Shown here: positions 1-26,603 of the stretch, in pieces | How the letters are laid out: every line of letters begins with the position of its first letter | Position numbering within the stretch: position 1 is the first letter of the stretch | Source of the DNA: a virus | Strand: one strand, 5' to 3' | IMG/VR virus record: IMGVR_UViG_3300036985_002451 | Span: 1 to 28,361 of that record | Length of the DNA: 28,361 nucleotides | Program-made: the position numbers and the translations under genes | Notes under the pieces: generated by a model | Database searches by the model: none | What the model saw: only the letters and a program-made list of their open reading frames with translations | What the model was told of the DNA's origin: nothing

Positions 1-843
1 CTTGATGTCGGCCAGAGCCTCCATCGCAGGTGATCGCCCATAAATCTCACGCGGGCCGGTGACATACCGACCAACCGCATACGGCATCGTCCGGTACCCG
101 CCCTCGGCGAGCAGCGTCTGACCCTCGCGGGCGACATACCGGGACATGTACTGCATCCCATCCGAACCGGCCTTGCCAGACCTGTACCCGTCGTTCGGCT
201 TTACGCAATGGATGAACTCAAAGAGGTCATTCGCTCGAGCACCGTCCGCAGCCTTGATGCCTCGCGGGAGCTTGTCAGCCCAGCCCGGCACCTGCATTGC
301 TTGCCGCGCCGTCAACTGGAAGCATCGGTACACCGTGTCCACCCGACCCGTATGGTCAAGGTCGATGACAATCTCAGAGAGCGGGATGGCGCGGTACCGC
401 AGCGTCACACCTGGTATCTCGTCGATGAAGAGCGCCGAGGTGCCGAACGCGCCCAGACTCAGGTAACACTCGAACGCCTGACTCGCGAAGTTCGCGGTCG
501 GCGCATACCGCTGACGGAACAGCAGGTCACGCAGGGAGTCGCACCAGCGTTGCACTTGGATGTTGTCGTCGAGTTCCGGGATGCCTGTGTGCAGGCCGTG
601 CCACATCTGGGTGGCGGGAGTCAGCATCGAGTCCATCGCAGCCGCGAACCGGGGGAGCGCTCGTTGCGCAGTCGAGTCGAATATCTTCTCCGACCGCTTC
701 TCGCCCGGCGTACGCTGCCCGGTCATCTCGGCCATCGACGGCCAGACCCGCTCGGCAACCTCCTGCCAATGGGACTCCCATGTACCACGCGCCCCCTTGA
801 GGCGGTCGTATCCCTGCAGTACGTCCTGTGCGCGTGAGTCCAT
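1..843 (-). CDS. Portal (head-to-tail connector) protein, C-terminus cut off by the window edge
   Basis: The frame reads 281 residues from ATG at 843 and runs off the left edge, so only the N-terminal half or so is present. The protein begins MDSRAQDVLQGYDRLKGARG and has an early segment typical of T7 gp8-like portals (WESHWQEVAERVWP), then FDSTAQRALPRFAAAMDSMLTP, and later a region ending GPREIYGRSPAMEAL. These are hallmarks of the phage head-to-tail connecting protein family (T7 gp8, PF12236). The portal is the dodecameric ring at one capsid vertex through which the terminase packages DNA and to which the tail attaches. A GGGAG ribosome site lies 5 nt before the ATG, inside the end of the small upstream gene. 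It is the last visible gene of the leftward packaging operon; scaffold and capsid genes would be expected next. Confidence 0.93.
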   Translation of the reverse strand, partial: MDSRAQDVLQGYDRLKGARGTWESHWQEVAERVWPSMAEMTGQRTPGEKRSEKIFDSTAQRALPRFAAAMDSMLTPATQMWHGLHTGIPELDDNIQVQRWCDSLRDLLFRQRYAPTANFASQAFECYLSLGAFGTSALFIDEIPGVTLRYRAIPLSEIVIDLDHTGRVDTVYRCFQLTARQAMQVPGWADKLPRGIKAADGARANDLFEFIHCVKPNDGYRSGKAGSDGMQYMSRYVAREGQTLLAEGGYRTMPYAVGRYVTGPREIYGRSPAMEALADIK

Positions 844-4941: not shown

Positions 4942-5357
4942 GAGACCTCTTGCTGCTCTATGCCCGGATCTCTCGCCCTGCTGTCCGAACCACCACCGGG
5001 GGGAGCACCCGGCCCACCAAGCCCAGCAGCTGCAACACCTACCGATGGCCGGATAACCCGCTCCGACCTGCCGACACCACCACCGAGACCGGCACCGGAG
5101 GCCAGAGAACGCATCGAATCCGCGCCTTCTCCATCGCCCAGTCTACGCGCTTTCGCGCCTGGGAGCGAGGGTCGCATGCGAATGACGGGCGGTGCCTCGC
5201 CGTACCGTGGCAGACTGGTCCACCCGCCGCCGCCGCCACCAACCTGCCCAAGTACCACGACCTGCGTGACCGGTACAGGCACCACTCCAGTCGGCCCGAA
5301 TGAGCTGCCCCACGACAGACCCCACGATGAACCCCACGAACTCAAGCCGGGTTCCAC
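4938..5357 (-). CDS. Trp-Gly/Ser repeat protein, unknown function
   Basis: It begins with short aromatic repeats (SSWGSSWGLSWGSSFG), then a hydrophobic stretch (GVVPVPVTQVVVLGQVGGGG), and continues as a glycine-, proline- and arginine-rich, probably disordered chain. Tracts of W-G-x-x-W-G occur at the ends of several phage virion appendage proteins. The frame opens only at 5360, so the start must be GTG 5357 (overlapping the previous gene by 16 nt) or TTG 5345; neither has a good ribosome site. The end of the preceding gene (SDPWNPA) followed by this tract could also be reached by a ribosomal slip, but I see no clear slippery sequence. The existence of the gene is supported by its tight ATGA link to the next one. 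Confidence 0.55.
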   Translation of the reverse strand: MEPGLSSWGSSWGLSWGSSFGPTGVVPVPVTQVVVLGQVGGGGGGWTSLPRYGEAPPVIRMRPSLPGAKARRLGDGEGADSMRSLASGAGLGGGVGRSERVIRPSVGVAAAGLGGPGAPPGGGSDSRARDPGIEQQEVS

Positions 5358-6040
5358 GGGTCAGATTCCGTTCCAGCCCCCTTGACCGTGTAGTTGTTCA
5401 CCTTGCGGATGTCCGCACGAATCGGTGCAACCTCTGCCGCCAGCAGAACCGCAGTTGCGTTGTCTGAGGCAGTCGGCGCAGCGGTGTACCCGGAAGACGC
5501 AAGCCTGGTCGAGGTCGCCACATCAATCCGTCCCAGTTCGGTTGCAAGTTCGGAGCGCACAGCGGTCGCATTCGCCGAGGCAGTCGGCGGCACCGTGTAC
5601 CCCGAGGTCGCGAGGCGAGTCGAGGTGGCAACATCAATGCGCCCGAGTTCTGTCGTGAGTTCCGTGCGCACCCCGGCTGCAATCTCGGTGACCGCGCTCG
5701 AGGCCAGCGCCGTCGAGGTGATGACATCCGTCCCGATGCTCGATACCGTGACAGATTCACCAGGCAAACCAACAACCACTTGCTCGCGCAGGTCGATGGG
5801 GTCGGCGCTCGCTGCCGTAATGTGCAGCACCAGATCCCCAAGCGTGTCGGTATGTGATGCTGTCATGGCAAGGTTATACCAACCAGTCCCACGCTCGGTG
5901 ACGGTCGGGGTGATGGAGCCGAACGCAGCGCCGTTCTTCGAGAGCGTGACGGTCAGGGTTGCTCCCGTCAATCCTGTCAGATGGTCGGTCGAATCGGTCA
6001 GGAAGACCATCAGGTTGCGAGCGGTCGATTGCTTGAGCAT
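5342..6040 (-). CDS. Virion appendage-like protein with a 37-residue tandem repeat, 232 aa
   Basis: The N-terminal 90 residues form a likely beta-sandwich (LTGATLTVTLSKNGAAF, then GTGWYNLAMTASHTDTLGDL), a plan common in phage baseplate and fibre-associated proteins. Residues 124-160 and 161-197 are two copies of a 37-residue unit centred on TELGRIDVATSTRLA and SGYT, with few differences. The C-terminus reads IRADIRKVNNYTVKG followed by SDPWNP, a frequent ending in this class. The gene lies 3 nt after the stop of the upstream gene and overlaps the next. A structural role on the particle is likely; the exact location is not known. Confidence 0.72.
   Translation of the reverse strand: MLKQSTARNLMVFLTDSTDHLTGLTGATLTVTLSKNGAAFGSITPTVTERGTGWYNLAMTASHTDTLGDLVLHITAASADPIDLREQVVVGLPGESVTVSSIGTDVITSTALASSAVTEIAAGVRTELTTELGRIDVATSTRLATSGYTVPPTASANATAVRSELATELGRIDVATSTRLASSGYTAAPTASDNATAVLLAAEVAPIRADIRKVNNYTVKGAGTESDPWNPA
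5450..5671 (-). repeat. Two direct 111-bp repeats inside a virion gene
   Basis: Bases 5561-5671 and 5450-5560 encode successive 37-residue copies. The DNA copies are visibly related but have many synonymous changes, so this is an older duplication kept at protein level rather than a recent one. Confidence 0.85.
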
Positions 6041-10312: not shown

Positions 10313-10426
10313 TTATTTTCGCAGCGCCTCCTCGATGATGATCCAGATGATGCGGATGACAGCACCGACCAGCATCGCAAGCCATACCGCCGCCAACGCG
10401 CCGAGCGCAATCTCAAGGTTACCCAC
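10313..10426 (-). CDS. Single-span membrane micro-protein, 37 aa
   Basis: GTG 10426 lies after GGGAG and inside the end of the replication-type gene (8-nt overlap). The protein is MGNLEIALGALAAVWLAMLV, then GAVIRIIWIIIEEALRK: a long hydrophobic helix with one arginine in its C-terminal third and a charged tail. It is the last gene before the promoter at 10282-10311. Its size and shape resemble the other micro-protein at 9311-9418, though the sequences are unrelated. Role unknown. Confidence 0.65.
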   Translation of the reverse strand: MGNLEIALGALAAVWLAMLVGAVIRIIWIIIEEALRK

Positions 10427-10955
10427 GCGACCGCTCCCGTAGCCGAGTCACCCCGCGTTCGCCAAACAACGAGCGCACCATGCAGAGGATGTGCAGGTCA
10501 CCGAGCGCATCGCTTGGCGACACATCGCGCAGCAGCTCACCCGCCCGCTCGCGCAGCCATTGCATCCGCTCGAGGTGGCCGTGCTCTTCGGATCGCATCT
10601 GGTACCGCGCCAAGGTCGCCTCGACCAGGCGAAGCTTGCCGAGCGAGTCCGATACCCCGTGCTTGTTCCATTCGCTTGCGGCCCGGTCGCTGTCTTGCGT
10701 GAACCGCACCTGGTCTGCCGCGACCTGCATAGTGCTCTTCTGCGGCTTCTCGCCCGGAGCTGGCTTTTCCTTCTTGAGGTCGAACAGCCCCTGCCACTGG
10801 TTGGCGATCGACTGGTCCACGACCGCCGCCTGGTCTGTGCCATAACGCTGCAGTTTCATCTTCATCGCCTGTTCGCTGACGGGCTTGATGGGTTTCCTAA
10901 TCGCCTTACGAAAGGCTAACCATCTATCCCATGCTTCTTGGTCGAGTTCGTTCAT
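10419..10955 (-). CDS. Phage replication-associated protein, 178 aa
   Basis: The N-terminal part (EAWDRWLAFRKAIRKPIKPV, then MKLQRYGTD and VVDQSIANQWQGLFDLKK) matches a module repeatedly found at the C-terminus of phage replication initiators and DnaT-like primosomal proteins. The remainder is helical and charged, with MRSEEHGHLERMQWLRE near the end. Here the module stands at the N-terminus of a short protein with no initiator or helicase domain. It lies downstream of cro in the leftward early operon, where lambda-type phages place their replication genes. Recruitment of host helicase is plausible; the direct evidence is limited to the W-x4-RK-I-KP and SI-NQW-GLF motifs. Confidence 0.66.
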   Translation of the reverse strand: MNELDQEAWDRWLAFRKAIRKPIKPVSEQAMKMKLQRYGTDQAAVVDQSIANQWQGLFDLKKEKPAPGEKPQKSTMQVAADQVRFTQDSDRAASEWNKHGVSDSLGKLRLVEATLARYQMRSEEHGHLERMQWLRERAGELLRDVSPSDALGDLHILCMVRSLFGERGVTRLRERSRG

Positions 10956-11179: not shown

Positions 11180-11250
11180 CTCTTTCCCCATATGCTCGGA
11201 AGCCCGGGAATGACCCCCCTACCCCCCATGTATTGGAAGGTAGTGAGGTC

Positions 11251-11328
11251 ATGCCTAAATGCCCGTATAGCCACGGTTGTTTAGACCCGCTGGACTTTGG
11301 TAAGCGATGTCCAACCCATCCAAAATAG
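11251..11328 (+). CDS. Possible 25-aa zinc-binding mini-protein
   Basis: On the plus strand, in the gap between two leftward genes, GAGGTC lies before ATG 11251. The peptide begins MPKCPYSHGCLDPLDFGKRC and ends PTHPK. Its C4, C10, C20 and H23 follow the CxYxxGC, RCPxH pattern found at the N-terminus of phage HNH nucleases. No HNH core follows the stop, so it is either a degraded nuclease start or a free zinc peptide. Evidence is motif plus ribosome site only. Confidence 0.4.
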   Translation: MPKCPYSHGCLDPLDFGKRCPTHPK

Positions 11329-11349
11329 GACAGCCCTTCGCCGACAGAT

Positions 11350-11628
11350 TTAGCCCATGTCGAGGGGCTGAGATGGATGATTGACAGACCTGTTCCCCCG
11401 GTCTATCGTCACGACACCTCGCGTAACACCTCGAGAGTAGGGCCCTCCCCCCGCCCGCGTCAAGCCCCCGAAAGGGGGTTTGTCGTTTCTGGCCTCCTCC
11501 ACGGCCTCGCACAAGACATCGACCACGCCGCGCACCCACCGCCGCCGACGCGCCTTGATGCGACTCGCCTCCCGGCGAGACTCAAGGTTTGCGTGATACC
11601 AGGCACGATGGTACGCAGCGCGAGTCAT
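11350..11628 (-). CDS. Arginine-rich protein downstream of cro, 92 aa
   Basis: ATG 11628 overlaps the cro stop (ATGA). The N-terminus AAYHRAWYHANLESRREASR and the cluster RRRRWVRG are basic and helical, then VVDVLCEAVEEARND. After PPFGGL (encoded by the hairpin at 11462-11481) the chain is low in structure, so the functional part may be the first 55 residues. It occupies the place of cII in lambda but has no HTH like CII. Similar basic arms occur in HNH nucleases, without the nuclease core here. The 3' half would be covered by the antisense RNA at 11416-11490. Confidence 0.58.
   Translation of the reverse strand: MTRAAYHRAWYHANLESRREASRIKARRRRWVRGVVDVLCEAVEEARNDKPPFGGLTRAGGGPYSRGVTRGVVTIDRGNRSVNHPSQPLDMG
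11381..11409 (+). promoter_or_regulatory. Plus-strand promoter for a short antisense RNA
   Basis: TTGACA (11381-11386), a 17-nt spacer, then TATCGT (11404-11409, 4/6). The spacing is optimal and the -35 perfect. It faces opposite to the leftward cro transcript. AGACC (11386-11390) and GGTCT (11400-11404) form an inverted repeat inside it that might bind a regulator. Confidence 0.55.
11416..11490 (+). ncRNA. Predicted OOP-like antisense RNA of about 70 nt
   Basis: A transcript from the promoter at 11381-11409 would start near 11416 and end at the hairpin and T-rich stretch at 11462-11490. It would be fully antisense to the 3' part of the gene following cro (11350-11628). In lambda the OOP RNA (about 77 nt) comes from the strand opposite to the cro-cII message, overlaps the end of cII and lowers its expression. 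The arrangement here is analogous in position, size and direction; sequence homology is not claimed. No ribosome site or long frame is present in it. Confidence 0.45.
11462..11490 (+). terminator. Intrinsic terminator on the plus strand
   Basis: AAGCCCCCGAAAGGGGGTTT (11462-11481) gives an 8-pair stem (one G-T) with a GAAA tetraloop, followed by GTCGTTTCT. The T-rich tail is present only in the plus direction; on the minus strand the hairpin is followed by GACGCGG, so leftward transcription is less likely to stop. Confidence 0.62.
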
Positions 11629-11864
11629 GCGTCGACCGGCTTCGGACGCAGACCGCTCTCGATCTTGCGAATCAGCCGCCTGGTCGAGCGTGACTGCTCG
11701 CCAGCCTCCAGCTCCGCAACGACCTCGCCAGCTAGTTCGCGCAGCGCGTACCGCTCTGGTACCCCAACCTTTGCCCACTTCGACACAGCCGCCCGGGTAA
11801 CACCGAACCGCCGAGCAATCGCGCTCTGGTTGCCGTACTTCTCAATCAATACTTGGATATCCAC
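11625..11864 (-). CDS. Cro-like repressor, 79 aa
   Basis: GTG 11864 is chosen because CAGGAG lies just upstream; the frame is open to 11900, but that longer start (ATG) would lie in the -10 box of the promoter. The protein reads VDIQVLIEKYGNQSAIARRF (the first residue is read as Met), then GVTRAAVSKWAKVGVPERYA: a Cro/YdaS-type helix-turn-helix with AIARRFGVTRAAVSKW as the recognition unit and VPERYAL following, as in small phage Cro proteins. The acidic helix VVAELEAGE may serve dimerisation. It heads the leftward early operon from the promoter at 11896-11924 and presumably binds the repeated 13-bp elements there. No CI partner gene is adjacent. Confidence 0.86.
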   Translation of the reverse strand: MDIQVLIEKYGNQSAIARRFGVTRAAVSKWAKVGVPERYALRELAGEVVAELEAGEQSRSTRRLIRKIESGLRPKPVDA

Positions 11865-11895
11865 GGATGCTCCTGCTTGGTTGTAAACACTTGGA

Positions 11896-11924
11896 ATCAT
11901 GCCCTAAAAAAAAGTTGGCGACAA
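11896..11924 (-). promoter_or_regulatory. Leftward early promoter, for cro
   Basis: On the minus strand TTGTCG (11919-11924), 17 nt, then CATGAT (11896-11901). Each box matches 4 of 6 consensus bases, and the spacer contains a run of eight T. It would give a short leader before the cro GTG at 11864. Confidence 0.58.
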
Positions 11925-11927
11925 GTG

Positions 11928-11957
11928 TTGACATGGTTATTGCGGTCGGTCTATGCT
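11928..11957 (+). promoter_or_regulatory. Rightward early promoter, for the recombination operon
   Basis: A perfect -35 TTGACA (11928-11933), 18-nt spacer, then TATGCT (11952-11957, 4/6). It lies 36 nt upstream of ATG 11993 and is flanked on both sides by operator-like elements. The -35 box is only 3 nt from that of the leftward promoter, so the two probably compete. Confidence 0.66.
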
Positions 11958-11992
11958 TACAACCGTTGACACACACAACGAACGAGGACCAC

Positions 11993-24300: not shown

Positions 24301-24951
24301 CAGCGCCACCTGTGGGCCAGCCTGCCCGAGCGCGAGCGCCACGCCTGCGCCAGTCGCACCACCGACGATGGCACCCTTGCCACCCTCCCGGATGGAACTG
24401 ACCAGCGACCGCGCCGTGTACCCGGTCTGCCCAAGGAACCACGCAAACGGGTTGTCACCGCGCTCCGTCGTGCGCCCAAGAGCGCCAATCTCATCAAGCA
24501 ACTTTCGGCGCTCTGCCGTCTCGCTCGAGCTCATGATCTCGCCAGAGACTGCCCGCCAGTTTAGCGGACTCACCTGATCTTGGACGGAAGCCTGCTTCCA
24601 TCCCTGAGCCGGAGCGATGAAGGTGCGCTCGATGCGCTCAAGCGTACCCACATCATCCCGCGCTACATCGGCCTGCTCGGACAGGAAGGTGGCCGTGACA
24701 GGGCTCGACTTCACAAGGTTGTCGTAGTCAATCTCGCCGAGGATCGCCTGCCGCTTGATCTCCTCGCGGTCGGCTCGCACCGTCTCGACCGGCACATTCA
24801 CCTTCTCGGCAAGCCTGCGCAATTCGGCCTCGACATCCGGCTCGGTCTGCGCAGCACCGTACATCGACGATCGCAGCGCCCCGGTCTGCTCCTGCCGCAT
24901 CAGGTCGAGGTAAGGATTGTCTTCCTCAACCATTCGCCGGTAGTCGGTCAC
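18367..24951 (-). CDS. Giant internal virion (ejection) protein with zincin motif, 2194 aa
   Basis: It takes the place of T7 gp16, the last protein before the tailspike, but is far longer (T7 gp16 is 1318 residues). Start GTG 24951 overlaps the upstream stop; ATG 24933 is an alternative. Residues 194-210 and about 380-405 are glycine/alanine-rich and possibly membrane-inserting. Residues 949-953 are HETGH in LSTFIHETGHFYLEVL, a metallopeptidase (zincin) motif common in giant polyvalent phage proteins. Helical, coiled regions follow to about 1800. Near 1839-1863 (NMAIVTMGWKVTTMMAQFAG) and 1935-2030 (ADRQVTIPTWLGAYRQA, YTPFSVLYARM) the sequence resembles the LPD38-type end of such proteins. It probably enters the cell with the DNA. 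I see no lytic transglycosylase motif as in T7 gp16. Residues 788-917 are coded by AT-rich DNA. Confidence 0.9.
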   Translation of the reverse strand: MTDYRRMVEEDNPYLDLMRQEQTGALRSSMYGAAQTEPDVEAELRRLAEKVNVPVETVRADREEIKRQAILGEIDYDNLVKSSPVTATFLSEQADVARDDVGTLERIERTFIAPAQGWKQASVQDQVSPLNWRAVSGEIMSSSETAERRKLLDEIGALGRTTERGDNPFAWFLGQTGYTARSLVSSIREGGKGAIVGGATGAGVALALGQAGPQVALPEEMVTVPGAFAFGARAGFITASTVYNYKEEAGFAFAEYEELKDESGVPLDPAVARGAAAAAGLLNAGLETVGDIALAKMIPGLDRLLGRGSREAVKTLLERPTFRNAIAQAGKKWLQSASIEGVTESLQELGVILGRELAQGVSGQEFAADEGNMARVLEAGAAGFAGGAGVGLPGAAISATSNVREVRKANQTAQFMEALGESAKASKLRERLPEQFRDFVAKAREQGPIENVFIPADQFTQYWQSQNVDPAQVATEVGAANYAEAVAIGGDVVIPIENYATRLAATEHHAALIQDTRLFQGDLTMREVQALEADRQQVEAEIQAAMEAEGTDAETPAIATIKQDVLGQLLGRFDRATADTYATMYSRAINALAQRSGIDPAALHEQYGLSVVTPLPDILQSRMGIDAALDPLIDRLRTGDIPTRRDIFGKSLTEFLRERGGLQDQGGELGARDAKLWDRDNRRVGEKALVSEKGMTFDQAREIALEAGYDVGETEVTFLGALDREIRGEGVFQPGKEKASLAELADALSGLEEYLGQQGIDITTTDNATIKALIAKASEGMGDVGMQFGQDRKRIYIGNVEVKKVPPPAELHADQLNKMTAQELEDLAEELFEEATYVTDETRSFGRENVLDEGLGLLWGYFEKNAGQFSGNWDAIVRDFVRSEIDRGQKNLTSSLRDAGRRIRAPFVEEKSFFQSVSPDEKRGFIQFGTDRKVRIGLLEKADLSTFIHETGHFYLEVLLDLAERPDASEQIKADAATLMKWFKVKNRSEIGVEQHEIFARGNEAYLMEGNAPSAALRGIFQRARAWMTLVYRTLTRLDVTLNDEVRGVFDRIYATDQEIEAANSELDLKDLFSTAEDAGMTEAEFAAYKKTAEGANERAKEKLQAQLLREYSREREKWWKGERAKMLEKVTAEVDALPAYRAAAILTEGVTPDGTPIKLSRQALETRFGTEFLKRLPRAVRKVYTKEGGTTVDVAADILGFESGEALMEALVNLRPRKQLIEAEVANRMATEFGDMRMDGTIGDEAMLAVHNSERATVIAAELKAIKRLQRQVRPVVAGIRRAEAAERRAGLDMVASAIEDPAAFQRAAAGRIGQMMARDISPGKYLLAERRASKAAFDAIKKKDYAAAATEKQRELLNHYMYVEATKAQRQLDTIYNYAGKFDKKATRERLAKAGGGYLDQIDAILEKYEFRQVSMRAVARRQALADFAEQQAQLGLIVNVPDALLDDAKMVNYKDVPVDELRAVYDTVRNIEHIAKLKDKLLRKQAAIEFQDTKDELIKSATDSDRLASTGELAIPNTVGEPLLARGAKAWRRFDAAILKVEQMVEWLDNGKIDGPWARFVFDLANDAQVKEYELHAQVTKRIQDLTESQPKGWGDTLQDTFSVVLPGLQSPVTRYTLISMALNTGNAGNYQRLRDGYGWSDATINGALAKLSKEDWDYVQGIWDAVNSLWPEIKALEERTSGVAPPKVEARTVQTRFGDYAGGYFPLAYDPRLSGIGDKQAEATESVAQFMANGYGRARTDKGYTKQRVETLKAPVRLDYEQVLTSHLGKVIKDISHREAIFSLNKLLKDDEIKQVMIDRLGESRYQEFTKWMQVLVSDRADTLHSGNVFSRGVMQFRTNMAIVTMGWKVTTMMAQFAGIGPSLDVVKPRFFTQALIDYNRFGPWSAHRETLEQFVFDRSGEMKFRTDNIDRDVRDSLRKLRGDRSPLAAIQRSAFYLTAMADRQVTIPTWLGAYRQAQAEGLNEEDSIRAGDRAVRLSQGAAGAKDLAAVQRDNELMKLLTMYYTPFSVLYARMRDVGATTRRVKDMPRAVARMLALVIMPAVMGEILAGRGPEEEEDETWWAIRKMLLYPLASVPILKEGSGVVEASMINLAGEGEMKFQPSWRLTPVAGAVEKVGRTFMKTSDVLAGNREFNEVGWDMFETSGYIFGLPTRQVRISGEYTMDVLNDERNPESPQQFMYEVLYGPPRE
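22200..22595. other. AT-rich island inside the giant ejection-protein gene
   Basis: Hand count gives about 40% GC for 22201-22500 against about 58% (22141-22200) and 60% (22621-22680) beside it. It has many A and T runs, unlike the rest of the gene. It encodes residues about 788-917, from FGQDRKRIYIGN to near SPDEKRG, without breaking the frame. This looks like an acquired domain inserted directly before the zincin. Confidence 0.85.
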
Positions 24952-26603
24952 TTGATAAGCCCCTGCGCTTTCTTGAAGTAGAACTGGATGTTCTCCTCGG
25001 TGACTTCCTTACCCTGCGCCCGAAGCGCTGCGGTAATTTGCCGCCGGTCGAACTCAGGCACCGTCACCGTGACAATCTCCTTGCCGGGCTCGACTTCAAA
25101 CAACGCAACATCGGTCGTGCCGAACAGACTGCCGCGCACCTCGACGCTGGCAAAAAGCCGGTCAATGGCGGCATTGCGCTGCTCCGGCGTCAACTTGCGC
25201 CCAGCAGCGGTTTCCTGCGAGCGGATGTCAGCGTCCAGTCTCGACCACGCTTGCGCGACCCGCTTGGATGGCAGCGTCCCAGGCTTCGGAGTCGGGTCAA
25301 TGCCAATCTCGGCAAGGCGCATGTTCATGCGTTGCTGCGTCGTCTGCACCTCAGTCTGCGCCACTTCCGGCGTATCGCTCGCTTCGGCCTGCAGCCTGAC
25401 AAGCTCCTTGAACTCGGTGTCTTCCATCCGATCGCGCAAAGCCATCAGGTTCGTTGAGCGCAGCAGAGCCGGGTTAGTCCGCAACTTGTAGTAAGTATCC
25501 CAGTCGGTCTCGACCTTGCCGCCGCCGCGCAGCCCGTCCGCGTAGTTGCGCACCGAACCCAGCTTGTCGCCGGGAATCGCAGCGCGAAGCGAGGCAGGCA
25601 GCGCCGCAAGGTTGCCGCCATTCGCCTCCAGTCGCCCGAAGACAGACGCCATGACTTCCTGCTCGCGCCGCTCACGGTCGCGCAGCATCGAGCCAACCTG
25701 CGCCAGAGCCTCCTGCGTAGCGTCATCGCGCACCCGCACATTGTCACCGGCAATCTCGCGCACCTTCTGGCGCACCTCGGTCTCGCTCGGGATGCGACCG
25801 CCGAACGACCCAATCACATCGTCCGCGATACGCGCAGACGCCCGCAGGTCGGTCTCGGTCGCCACCTTGCCCTCGAGCTCTACAAGCCTCGGAGCCTTGA
25901 TGGTCGACCGGTTGCGGTCGATGTACTGCGCAGCAAACTCCACGTCACCGGCATCGAGCGCCGAATTGACCACCGACGCATGCACTTGGTCCACGTTGTC
26001 CATCTGCACCGCCAGCAGCGCGTCCCCGGTTATGCCGTTGCGGTCAGCCCAGAGCGCCGTGTTCGTCGCGATGCGCCCGATGCTATCGTTTACCTTTGCC
26101 TGGTCGCGCCAGTTTAGAGCCGCCACATTGGTCTCGGTCTTGATCGTTCCCTCGTAGACGTTATCCCTGTACTGGTCGGTCTCGCGCAGGACATGCCGCA
26201 TCAGCGAGTCACCAAACTCAGCCTTTGCCATCCCAGCACGACGCCGGAACAGGTCTTGCTGCCGAGGGCTTGGGAGGTCTTTCGCAACCTCCTCAATCGC
26301 CTTGTCAAAGTCGCCCGAGTACCGAGTCATGAAATCCGGCGCAACCGCATCGGCTGCTTTCTTCGATGTAAACCCAGTCTCGGGGTTCATCATCAGGTCG
26401 GTCTGCCGGTCGCGCAGTTGGTTGAACGCATCCTCTACCCGCAACTGGTCGAGGTCTGCCGACAACTTTCCGAACGCCGTAGCACCACGCGCTATGGCCT
26501 CGGCAGTCTCCACCGCTTGAGCGCCCACAGCAGCAAGCCCTCGCGTGTTCGGGGTCGCGATGCGCGGGACAACCTGTTGACGGTAGAACTCAAGCTTTGC
26601 CAT
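24948..26603 (-). CDS. Internal virion protein, T7 gp15-like position, 551 aa
   Basis: A mainly helical protein starting MAKLEFYRQQVVPRIATPNT, with long alanine/glutamate helices, then FNQLRDRQTDLMMNPETGFT, DFMTRYSGDFDKAIEEVAKD and NVAALNWRDQAKVN. The pattern of a short N-terminal arm, a LRDRQTDLMMNP segment and repeated helices is typical of gp15-like ejection proteins of podoviruses (T7 gp15 is 747 residues). With the giant protein and the gp14-like protein it would form the channel across the cell envelope. AAGGTGA lies 5 nt before the ATG. It directly precedes the giant gene (GTGA overlap). Confidence 0.85.
   Translation of the reverse strand: MAKLEFYRQQVVPRIATPNTRGLAAVGAQAVETAEAIARGATAFGKLSADLDQLRVEDAFNQLRDRQTDLMMNPETGFTSKKAADAVAPDFMTRYSGDFDKAIEEVAKDLPSPRQQDLFRRRAGMAKAEFGDSLMRHVLRETDQYRDNVYEGTIKTETNVAALNWRDQAKVNDSIGRIATNTALWADRNGITGDALLAVQMDNVDQVHASVVNSALDAGDVEFAAQYIDRNRSTIKAPRLVELEGKVATETDLRASARIADDVIGSFGGRIPSETEVRQKVREIAGDNVRVRDDATQEALAQVGSMLRDRERREQEVMASVFGRLEANGGNLAALPASLRAAIPGDKLGSVRNYADGLRGGGKVETDWDTYYKLRTNPALLRSTNLMALRDRMEDTEFKELVRLQAEASDTPEVAQTEVQTTQQRMNMRLAEIGIDPTPKPGTLPSKRVAQAWSRLDADIRSQETAAGRKLTPEQRNAAIDRLFASVEVRGSLFGTTDVALFEVEPGKEIVTVTVPEFDRRQITAALRAQGKEVTEENIQFYFKKAQGLIK

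Follow-up and report, generated by a model that had tools for sequence, protein, structure and literature searches.

Comparison across related loci points to a conserved small RNA gene, real and new to the libraries searched, whose design is of the OOP type known from phage lambda. It lies on the strand opposite to the cro operon in positions 1 to 28,361 of IMG/VR record IMGVR_UViG_3300036985_002451 (hereafter the window), and it recurs in over 100 distinct IMG/VR loci. We regard it as moderately probable that the gene specifies an OOP-like, self-terminating small RNA that is cis-antisense to the mRNA running from cro to the replication genes in an uncultured phage group. That the unit is a regulator working like the lambda OOP antisense RNA is very likely, judged from its layout and conservation.

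The OOP design would then occur without CII, without any sequence relation to lambda, and in a large group of uncultured phages. The unit persists while the neighbouring genes on both sides change, which suggests that the junction between cro and the replication gene is the thing controlled, and control at this junction bears on the unsettled role of OOP in lambda replication.

The promoter-terminator unit and its conservation

The first-pass annotation had read TTGACA, 17 nt and TATCGT on the plus strand, followed by an 8-pair GAAA-loop hairpin with a T-rich tail. The promoter was reproduced by sequence reading and by a mechanical scan, with the -35 box TTGACA at 11381-11386 and the -10 box TATCGT at 11404-11409, together matching 10 of 12 consensus letters; across the family the -10 box takes the form [T/C]AnnnT after a spacer of 16-18 nt, mostly 17. 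The hairpin is present as well, found by scan and by folding, but its stem, CAAGCCCCC-GAAA-GGGGGTTTG at 11461-11482, has 9 pairs counting G.U and not 8. It starts about 50 nt past the expected transcription start and is followed by TCGTTTCT, so that terminator hairpin and tail together occupy 11461-11490 of the plus strand.

We infer a 5' end 7 nt past the -10 box and put the 3' end in the T-rich tail, which gives a predicted small RNA at 11416-11490 (plus strand) of about 70-75 nt, in keeping with its fold and with the length in relatives. This RNA is predicted to fold into three hairpins (-32.1 kcal/mol, z -3.9), beating 200 of 200 shuffles. Hairpin B (11416-11438, ACCUCG...CGAGAGU) is indicated by the fold and by kept complementarity, and hairpin C (11440-11456, GGGC...GCCC around a C-rich loop) by the fold and by compensatory stems; the third is the terminator. 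Over 5 kb, the mechanical scan returned two promoter-like sites against 1.1 expected and five terminator-like sites against 2.6 expected. As such sites are common in a stretch of this size, the scan by itself is weak evidence, and the significance of the unit rests on conservation.

A protein search with the overlapped open reading frame yielded 51 IMG/VR loci, and in many of these the upstream frame is unrelated, yet the DNA from promoter to terminator is kept. DNA pattern scans, which demanded TTGAC and/or GTCAA, brought the total to about 90 contigs; neither the protein-seeded set nor a fetch anchored outside the element required TTGAC. The latter served as the fair test, the scan being anchored on a conserved sequence that lies about 170 nt outside the element and is unrelated to it. 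It gave 105 distinct loci, at least 102 of which have a promoter of the same grammar, and nearly all have both a terminator, its stem often completely different in sequence, and the GTCAA linker. Ninety distinct full units were parsed, with lengths of 71-84 nt (median 73). Related phages dominate the sequence set, so all these counts overstate the number of independent events.

The defining letters of the promoter stay constant, unlike the spacer and the central positions of the -10 box, which vary. All 43 distinct promoters have TTGAC (as TTGAC[A/G]), 63 of 68 elements have TTGACA, and TTGAC is found also in the protein-seeded and context-anchored sets, where it was not demanded. The A at position 2 and the T at position 6 of the -10 box are likewise present in 43 of 43 promoters when the best of three spacers is taken, against a background of 7% for NANNNT; position 1 is T or C and positions 3-5 drift. 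TTGAC with an A-nnn-T box at 16-18 nt spacing occurs in 90 of 90 units, in a parse that itself required the -10 letters. Weakness at the middle positions of the -10 box counts against the reading as an OOP-like small RNA gene. Among the relatives the -35 box, the -10 box and the hairpin are conserved, and no locus was seen that keeps the protein frame and has lost promoter and stem. A chance match is ruled out by this conservation across distinct loci, and at the level of sequence the unit is confirmed as real and far from chance.

No exact-pattern copy of the element was present in 84,980 reference prokaryote genomes (GTDB genome contigs), no covering blastn match was obtained in 50,697 phage records (the best covered at most 25% of the query, with E 0.1 or worse), and no model of Rfam 15 matches it. 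Because of its absence from the reference genomes and phage records searched, the element seems to belong to an uncultured phage group.

Hairpins of the predicted RNA and the gene beneath it

Covariation was judged against a null of arms re-paired between loci, as the register of helices B and C changes from subgroup to subgroup, which makes MAFFT columns unsuitable for counting pairs. Hairpin C reaches Z 10.3 on this scale, with compensatory stems such as GAACC/GGTTC, GATCGA/TCGATC and GGTTG/CAACC, and hairpin B, whose complementarity survives changes, reaches Z 3.7; three control region pairs gave Z -1.8 to 0.8. The terminator stem CCCCC/GGGGG is exchanged for GCCCC/GGGGC or for wholly different stems, and the tail is T-rich throughout. 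In the pattern-found set, terminator loops of four bases follow GNRA or read UAAC; other members have longer, non-GNRA loops. A G.U pair that is possible on the plus strand only stands at the terminator base in most copies, and the T-rich tail is found on the plus side only. Tail, GNRA/UAAC loops and base G.U together mark the plus strand as the RNA strand.

These covarying hairpins would be needless if transcription itself were what acts, through interference with the convergent early operon or through opening of the DNA near a replication origin. The unit does adjoin replication genes, and the pO promoter is said to matter in lambda replication beyond priming (review, PMC12197685), but we consider such a role extremely improbable here. 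Some unpaired letters are also kept, namely GCA in the loop of hairpin B, the C-rich loop of hairpin C and the GTCAA linker, as might be expected of a trans-acting small RNA whose C-rich or GCA loop targets other phage or host mRNAs and whose location is incidental. The loops differ, however, in more distant members, and despite the swaps of the flanks the element holds its place and direction with respect to cro and the replication genes; little probability attaches to action in trans.

In the window, the predicted RNA lies wholly within a minus-strand open reading frame at 11350-11628, in agreement with the earlier proposal of an RNA of about 70 nt fully antisense to the gene after cro. This small gene, here called gene X, encodes 92 aa with a YHRxYY motif and matched no Pfam family, which fits the earlier remark that it is not a CII. 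Most relatives are without gene X, and their cro gene ends 0-20 nt beyond the terminator stem; in some other loci it is a C5 cytosine methyltransferase gene, instead of cro, that ends at the terminator. The members thus share no common gene beneath the RNA and, with gene X missing in most loci, the element was not made for it.

Codon divergence leads to the same view. In 17 gene X copies, codons 1-46 diverge by 0.34, 0.26 and 0.54 at positions 1, 2 and 3, and codons 47-56, which lie over the terminator, by 0.012 at every position. Selection of these copies by a protein motif lying over the terminator limits change at positions 1 and 2 and leaves position 3 free, and the absent third-position change is for that reason informative. 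The first 46 codons vary as in a protein and the terminator codons hardly vary, which argues that a DNA or RNA element is conserved there. Coding conservation of the overlapped frame as the cause is refuted by the absence of gene X and by the flat codon divergence. The proposed target, the gene after cro, had to be given up in general, as most relatives lack that gene and, where it occurs, its 3' end shows conservation of the DNA and not of the protein. Gene X appears instead to be an optional cargo gene between cro and the element, with its first 46 codons under protein-level selection.

A dyad and structured leaders on the opposite strand

The promoter is set within a dyad predicted to form one minus-strand hairpin at 11370-11420, as indicated by folding (z -2.5) and covariation. 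Its inner arms, 11383-11390 and 11400-11407, lie in and beside the spacer (Z 4.7-7.3), its outer arms, 11370-11375 and 11415-11420, flank the promoter (Z 7.3), and folding of the minus strand of the window over 11345-11420 yields a long hairpin with z -2.5. The inner dyad fits better with minus-strand wobbles (Z 9.3) than with plus-strand wobbles (Z 6.8), an advantage that is partly forced, since C5 of TTGAC opposes A2 of the -10 box in many copies. Outside the forced positions about nine mismatches favour the minus strand and none the plus strand, in related loci that represent fewer independent events. Restricted to the letters of the spacer, the wobble test does not tell the two strands apart. 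The promoter letters of one strand and the RNA hairpin of the other appear to have been selected in the same bases, which would be a rare case. To see signals on the plus strand alone is incomplete, since the promoter region also fits a minus-strand mRNA hairpin.

The promoter dyad differs between relatives. As a Cro operator it was rejected, the AGACC/GGTCT arms not being obviously repeated, by eye, in the region upstream of cro (11885-11990). The LexA pattern CTGT-N8-ACAG, which may not be that of the host, was not seen by eye in 11360-11430.

Since the promoter dyad fits best as minus-strand RNA, a structured element of the cro-operon mRNA, perhaps an antitermination or processing site, might be what is selected, with promoter and terminator as by-products. 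Against this, A-nnn-T and TTGAC are kept at 16-18 nt despite the mismatch that they cause on the plus strand in many copies (U.G on the minus strand), which the hairpin alone would not call for, and both the terminator tail and the GNRA loops point to the plus strand. We find this explanation very improbable.

Beyond the dyad, structured leaders are predicted on the minus strand in two of the three contexts in which the element is found. In context II, which includes the window, an intercistronic leader at 11195-11380 (minus strand) has a 10-sequence consensus fold of -39.0 on the minus strand versus -22.0 on the plus strand, with 96 G.U cells and no A.C on the minus strand. It is unrelated to the leader of context I, whose position it takes in the window and in nine relatives. 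In context I, a conserved structured RNA of about 230 nt on the early-operon strand lies beside the promoter of the small RNA in about 100 distinct viral loci, with a consensus fold (36 sequences) of -64 on the minus strand versus -41 on the plus strand and no match in Rfam. An example lies at about 5240-5540 (plus strand) of the related locus L018; in many of L139-L234 it is the other strand that carries the core, GATGACTGACGGAGCCAYCC. Context III continues almost directly into a coding gene. Given these leaders, the early-operon mRNA is probably structured where the small RNA would meet it.

Such an arrangement resembles plasmid countertranscript systems. ColE1 RNA I and the RNAs of pT181 and pIP501 are small multi-hairpin RNAs that oppose structured transcripts leading to replication functions, and the element shares with them a small multi-hairpin RNA set against a structured transcript ahead of replication functions; unlike them, it sits in a phage early operon, with no evident primer or attenuator. 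Control of this type, in which the RNA would switch the fold of a structured leader (or primer transcript) without simple cutting of the mRNA, is suggested by the large covarying minus-strand structures just downstream in two of three contexts. The stretch at about 11410-11421, moreover, is complementary to two partners, the outer-dyad arm upstream of it (Z 7.3) and, downstream, the arm of hairpin B (Z 3.7). A separate hairpin on each strand explains this shared stretch equally well, however, the minus strand revealed no conditional terminator, and in context III the coding gene comes almost at once; we therefore treat countertranscript control as rather unlikely. Only tentatively, and at a similarly low probability, can it be proposed that the antisense RNA promoter is embedded in, and co-evolves with, the hairpin of its own target, the RNA refolding the leader of the replication gene in contexts I and II. 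If true, phages of an uncultured group would run a copy-control circuit of the plasmid kind.

Likeness to lambda OOP and the gene neighbourhood

The opposed operon begins with a Cro-like HTH gene (P22_Cro/YdaS-like) at 11625-11900 on the minus strand, which scores just under the Pfam cut-off; the Cro-like gene of one relative passes the cut-off for P22_Cro. Downstream in the operon, the gene at 10419-10955 (minus strand) is similar to an O-like replication initiation protein (phrog_678, E 1.3e-11). Among the loci the order is cro, an optional cargo gene, the element, an O-like or DUF1376 gene, and RusA, and the element keeps its position and direction while both flanks are exchanged.

The lambda OOP RNA, of about 77 nt, is complementary to the pR operon mRNA, runs antisense to cII and stimulates cutting of the cII-O mRNA by RNase III (PMC5869508, PMC3349717). 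The first-pass annotation had likened the unit to OOP in place, direction and size, and re-examination of the lambda region, which reads as a TTGAGT-17-CATAAT promoter with a hairpin terminator, agrees. Both lie on the opposite strand between cro-side genes and an O-like replication gene, and both have their own promoter, a hairpin terminator and an RNA near 77 nt, in the present case predicted from sequence and conservation. The lambda order cro-cII-oop-O is paralleled by cro-cargo-element-O-like.

The differences are also considerable. Lambda OOP overlaps cII by 52 nt, whereas CII is absent here and in most loci no gene is overlapped. The lambda sequence has no similarity to the element, and the 33-bp oop/pO homology of lambdoid phages (PMC3349717) is absent. 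Unlike lambda OOP, the predicted RNA has two covarying hairpins ahead of its terminator, and its promoter forms a covarying dyad. In view of the sequence, the missing CII overlap and the flanking structures, we advise against classing the element with lambda OOP as its homologue. Other phage cis-antisense RNAs act on phage regulatory mRNAs, among them P22 sar RNA and lambda aQ RNA (PMC12197685), and these differ from the element in locus, target and control.

Promoter, hairpins, terminator, position, independence from the overlapped gene and the dyad-built promoter are features that comparison of the sequences brings out. Transcription of the unit, the operon mRNA as its target, a part for RNase III and the sign of the effect are what we infer in addition, and by analogy, the OOP-type gene order and layout make pairing with the cro-to-replication mRNA most likely. 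From its sigma-70-type promoter the unit would give an RNA of about 70-75 nt opposite the cro-to-replication operon, which would fold into two hairpins and a terminator and may pair with the intercistronic early-operon mRNA between cro (or the cargo gene) and the replication genes. Pairing would be expected to lower or cut the operon mRNA, with RNase III as the expected partner; alternatively, it may change the fold of the replication-gene leader.

Several further features of the neighbourhood were observed. A C5 cytosine DNA methyltransferase gene lies between cro and the element in the related loci L018, L096 and L078, immediately upstream of the element on the strand of the operon, and the relative L050 carries a tRNA gene at 175-245 (minus strand). 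The window also encodes ERF, YqaJ, NinB, a terminase and podovirus-like virion proteins; for the virion gene at 24948-26603, weak relatives occur in podoviruses of Bordetella and Pseudomonas. The second promoter-like site, TTGACA-18-TATGCT at 11928-11957 of the plus strand, points away from cro and is where the recombination operon (ERF, YqaJ, NinB) probably begins.
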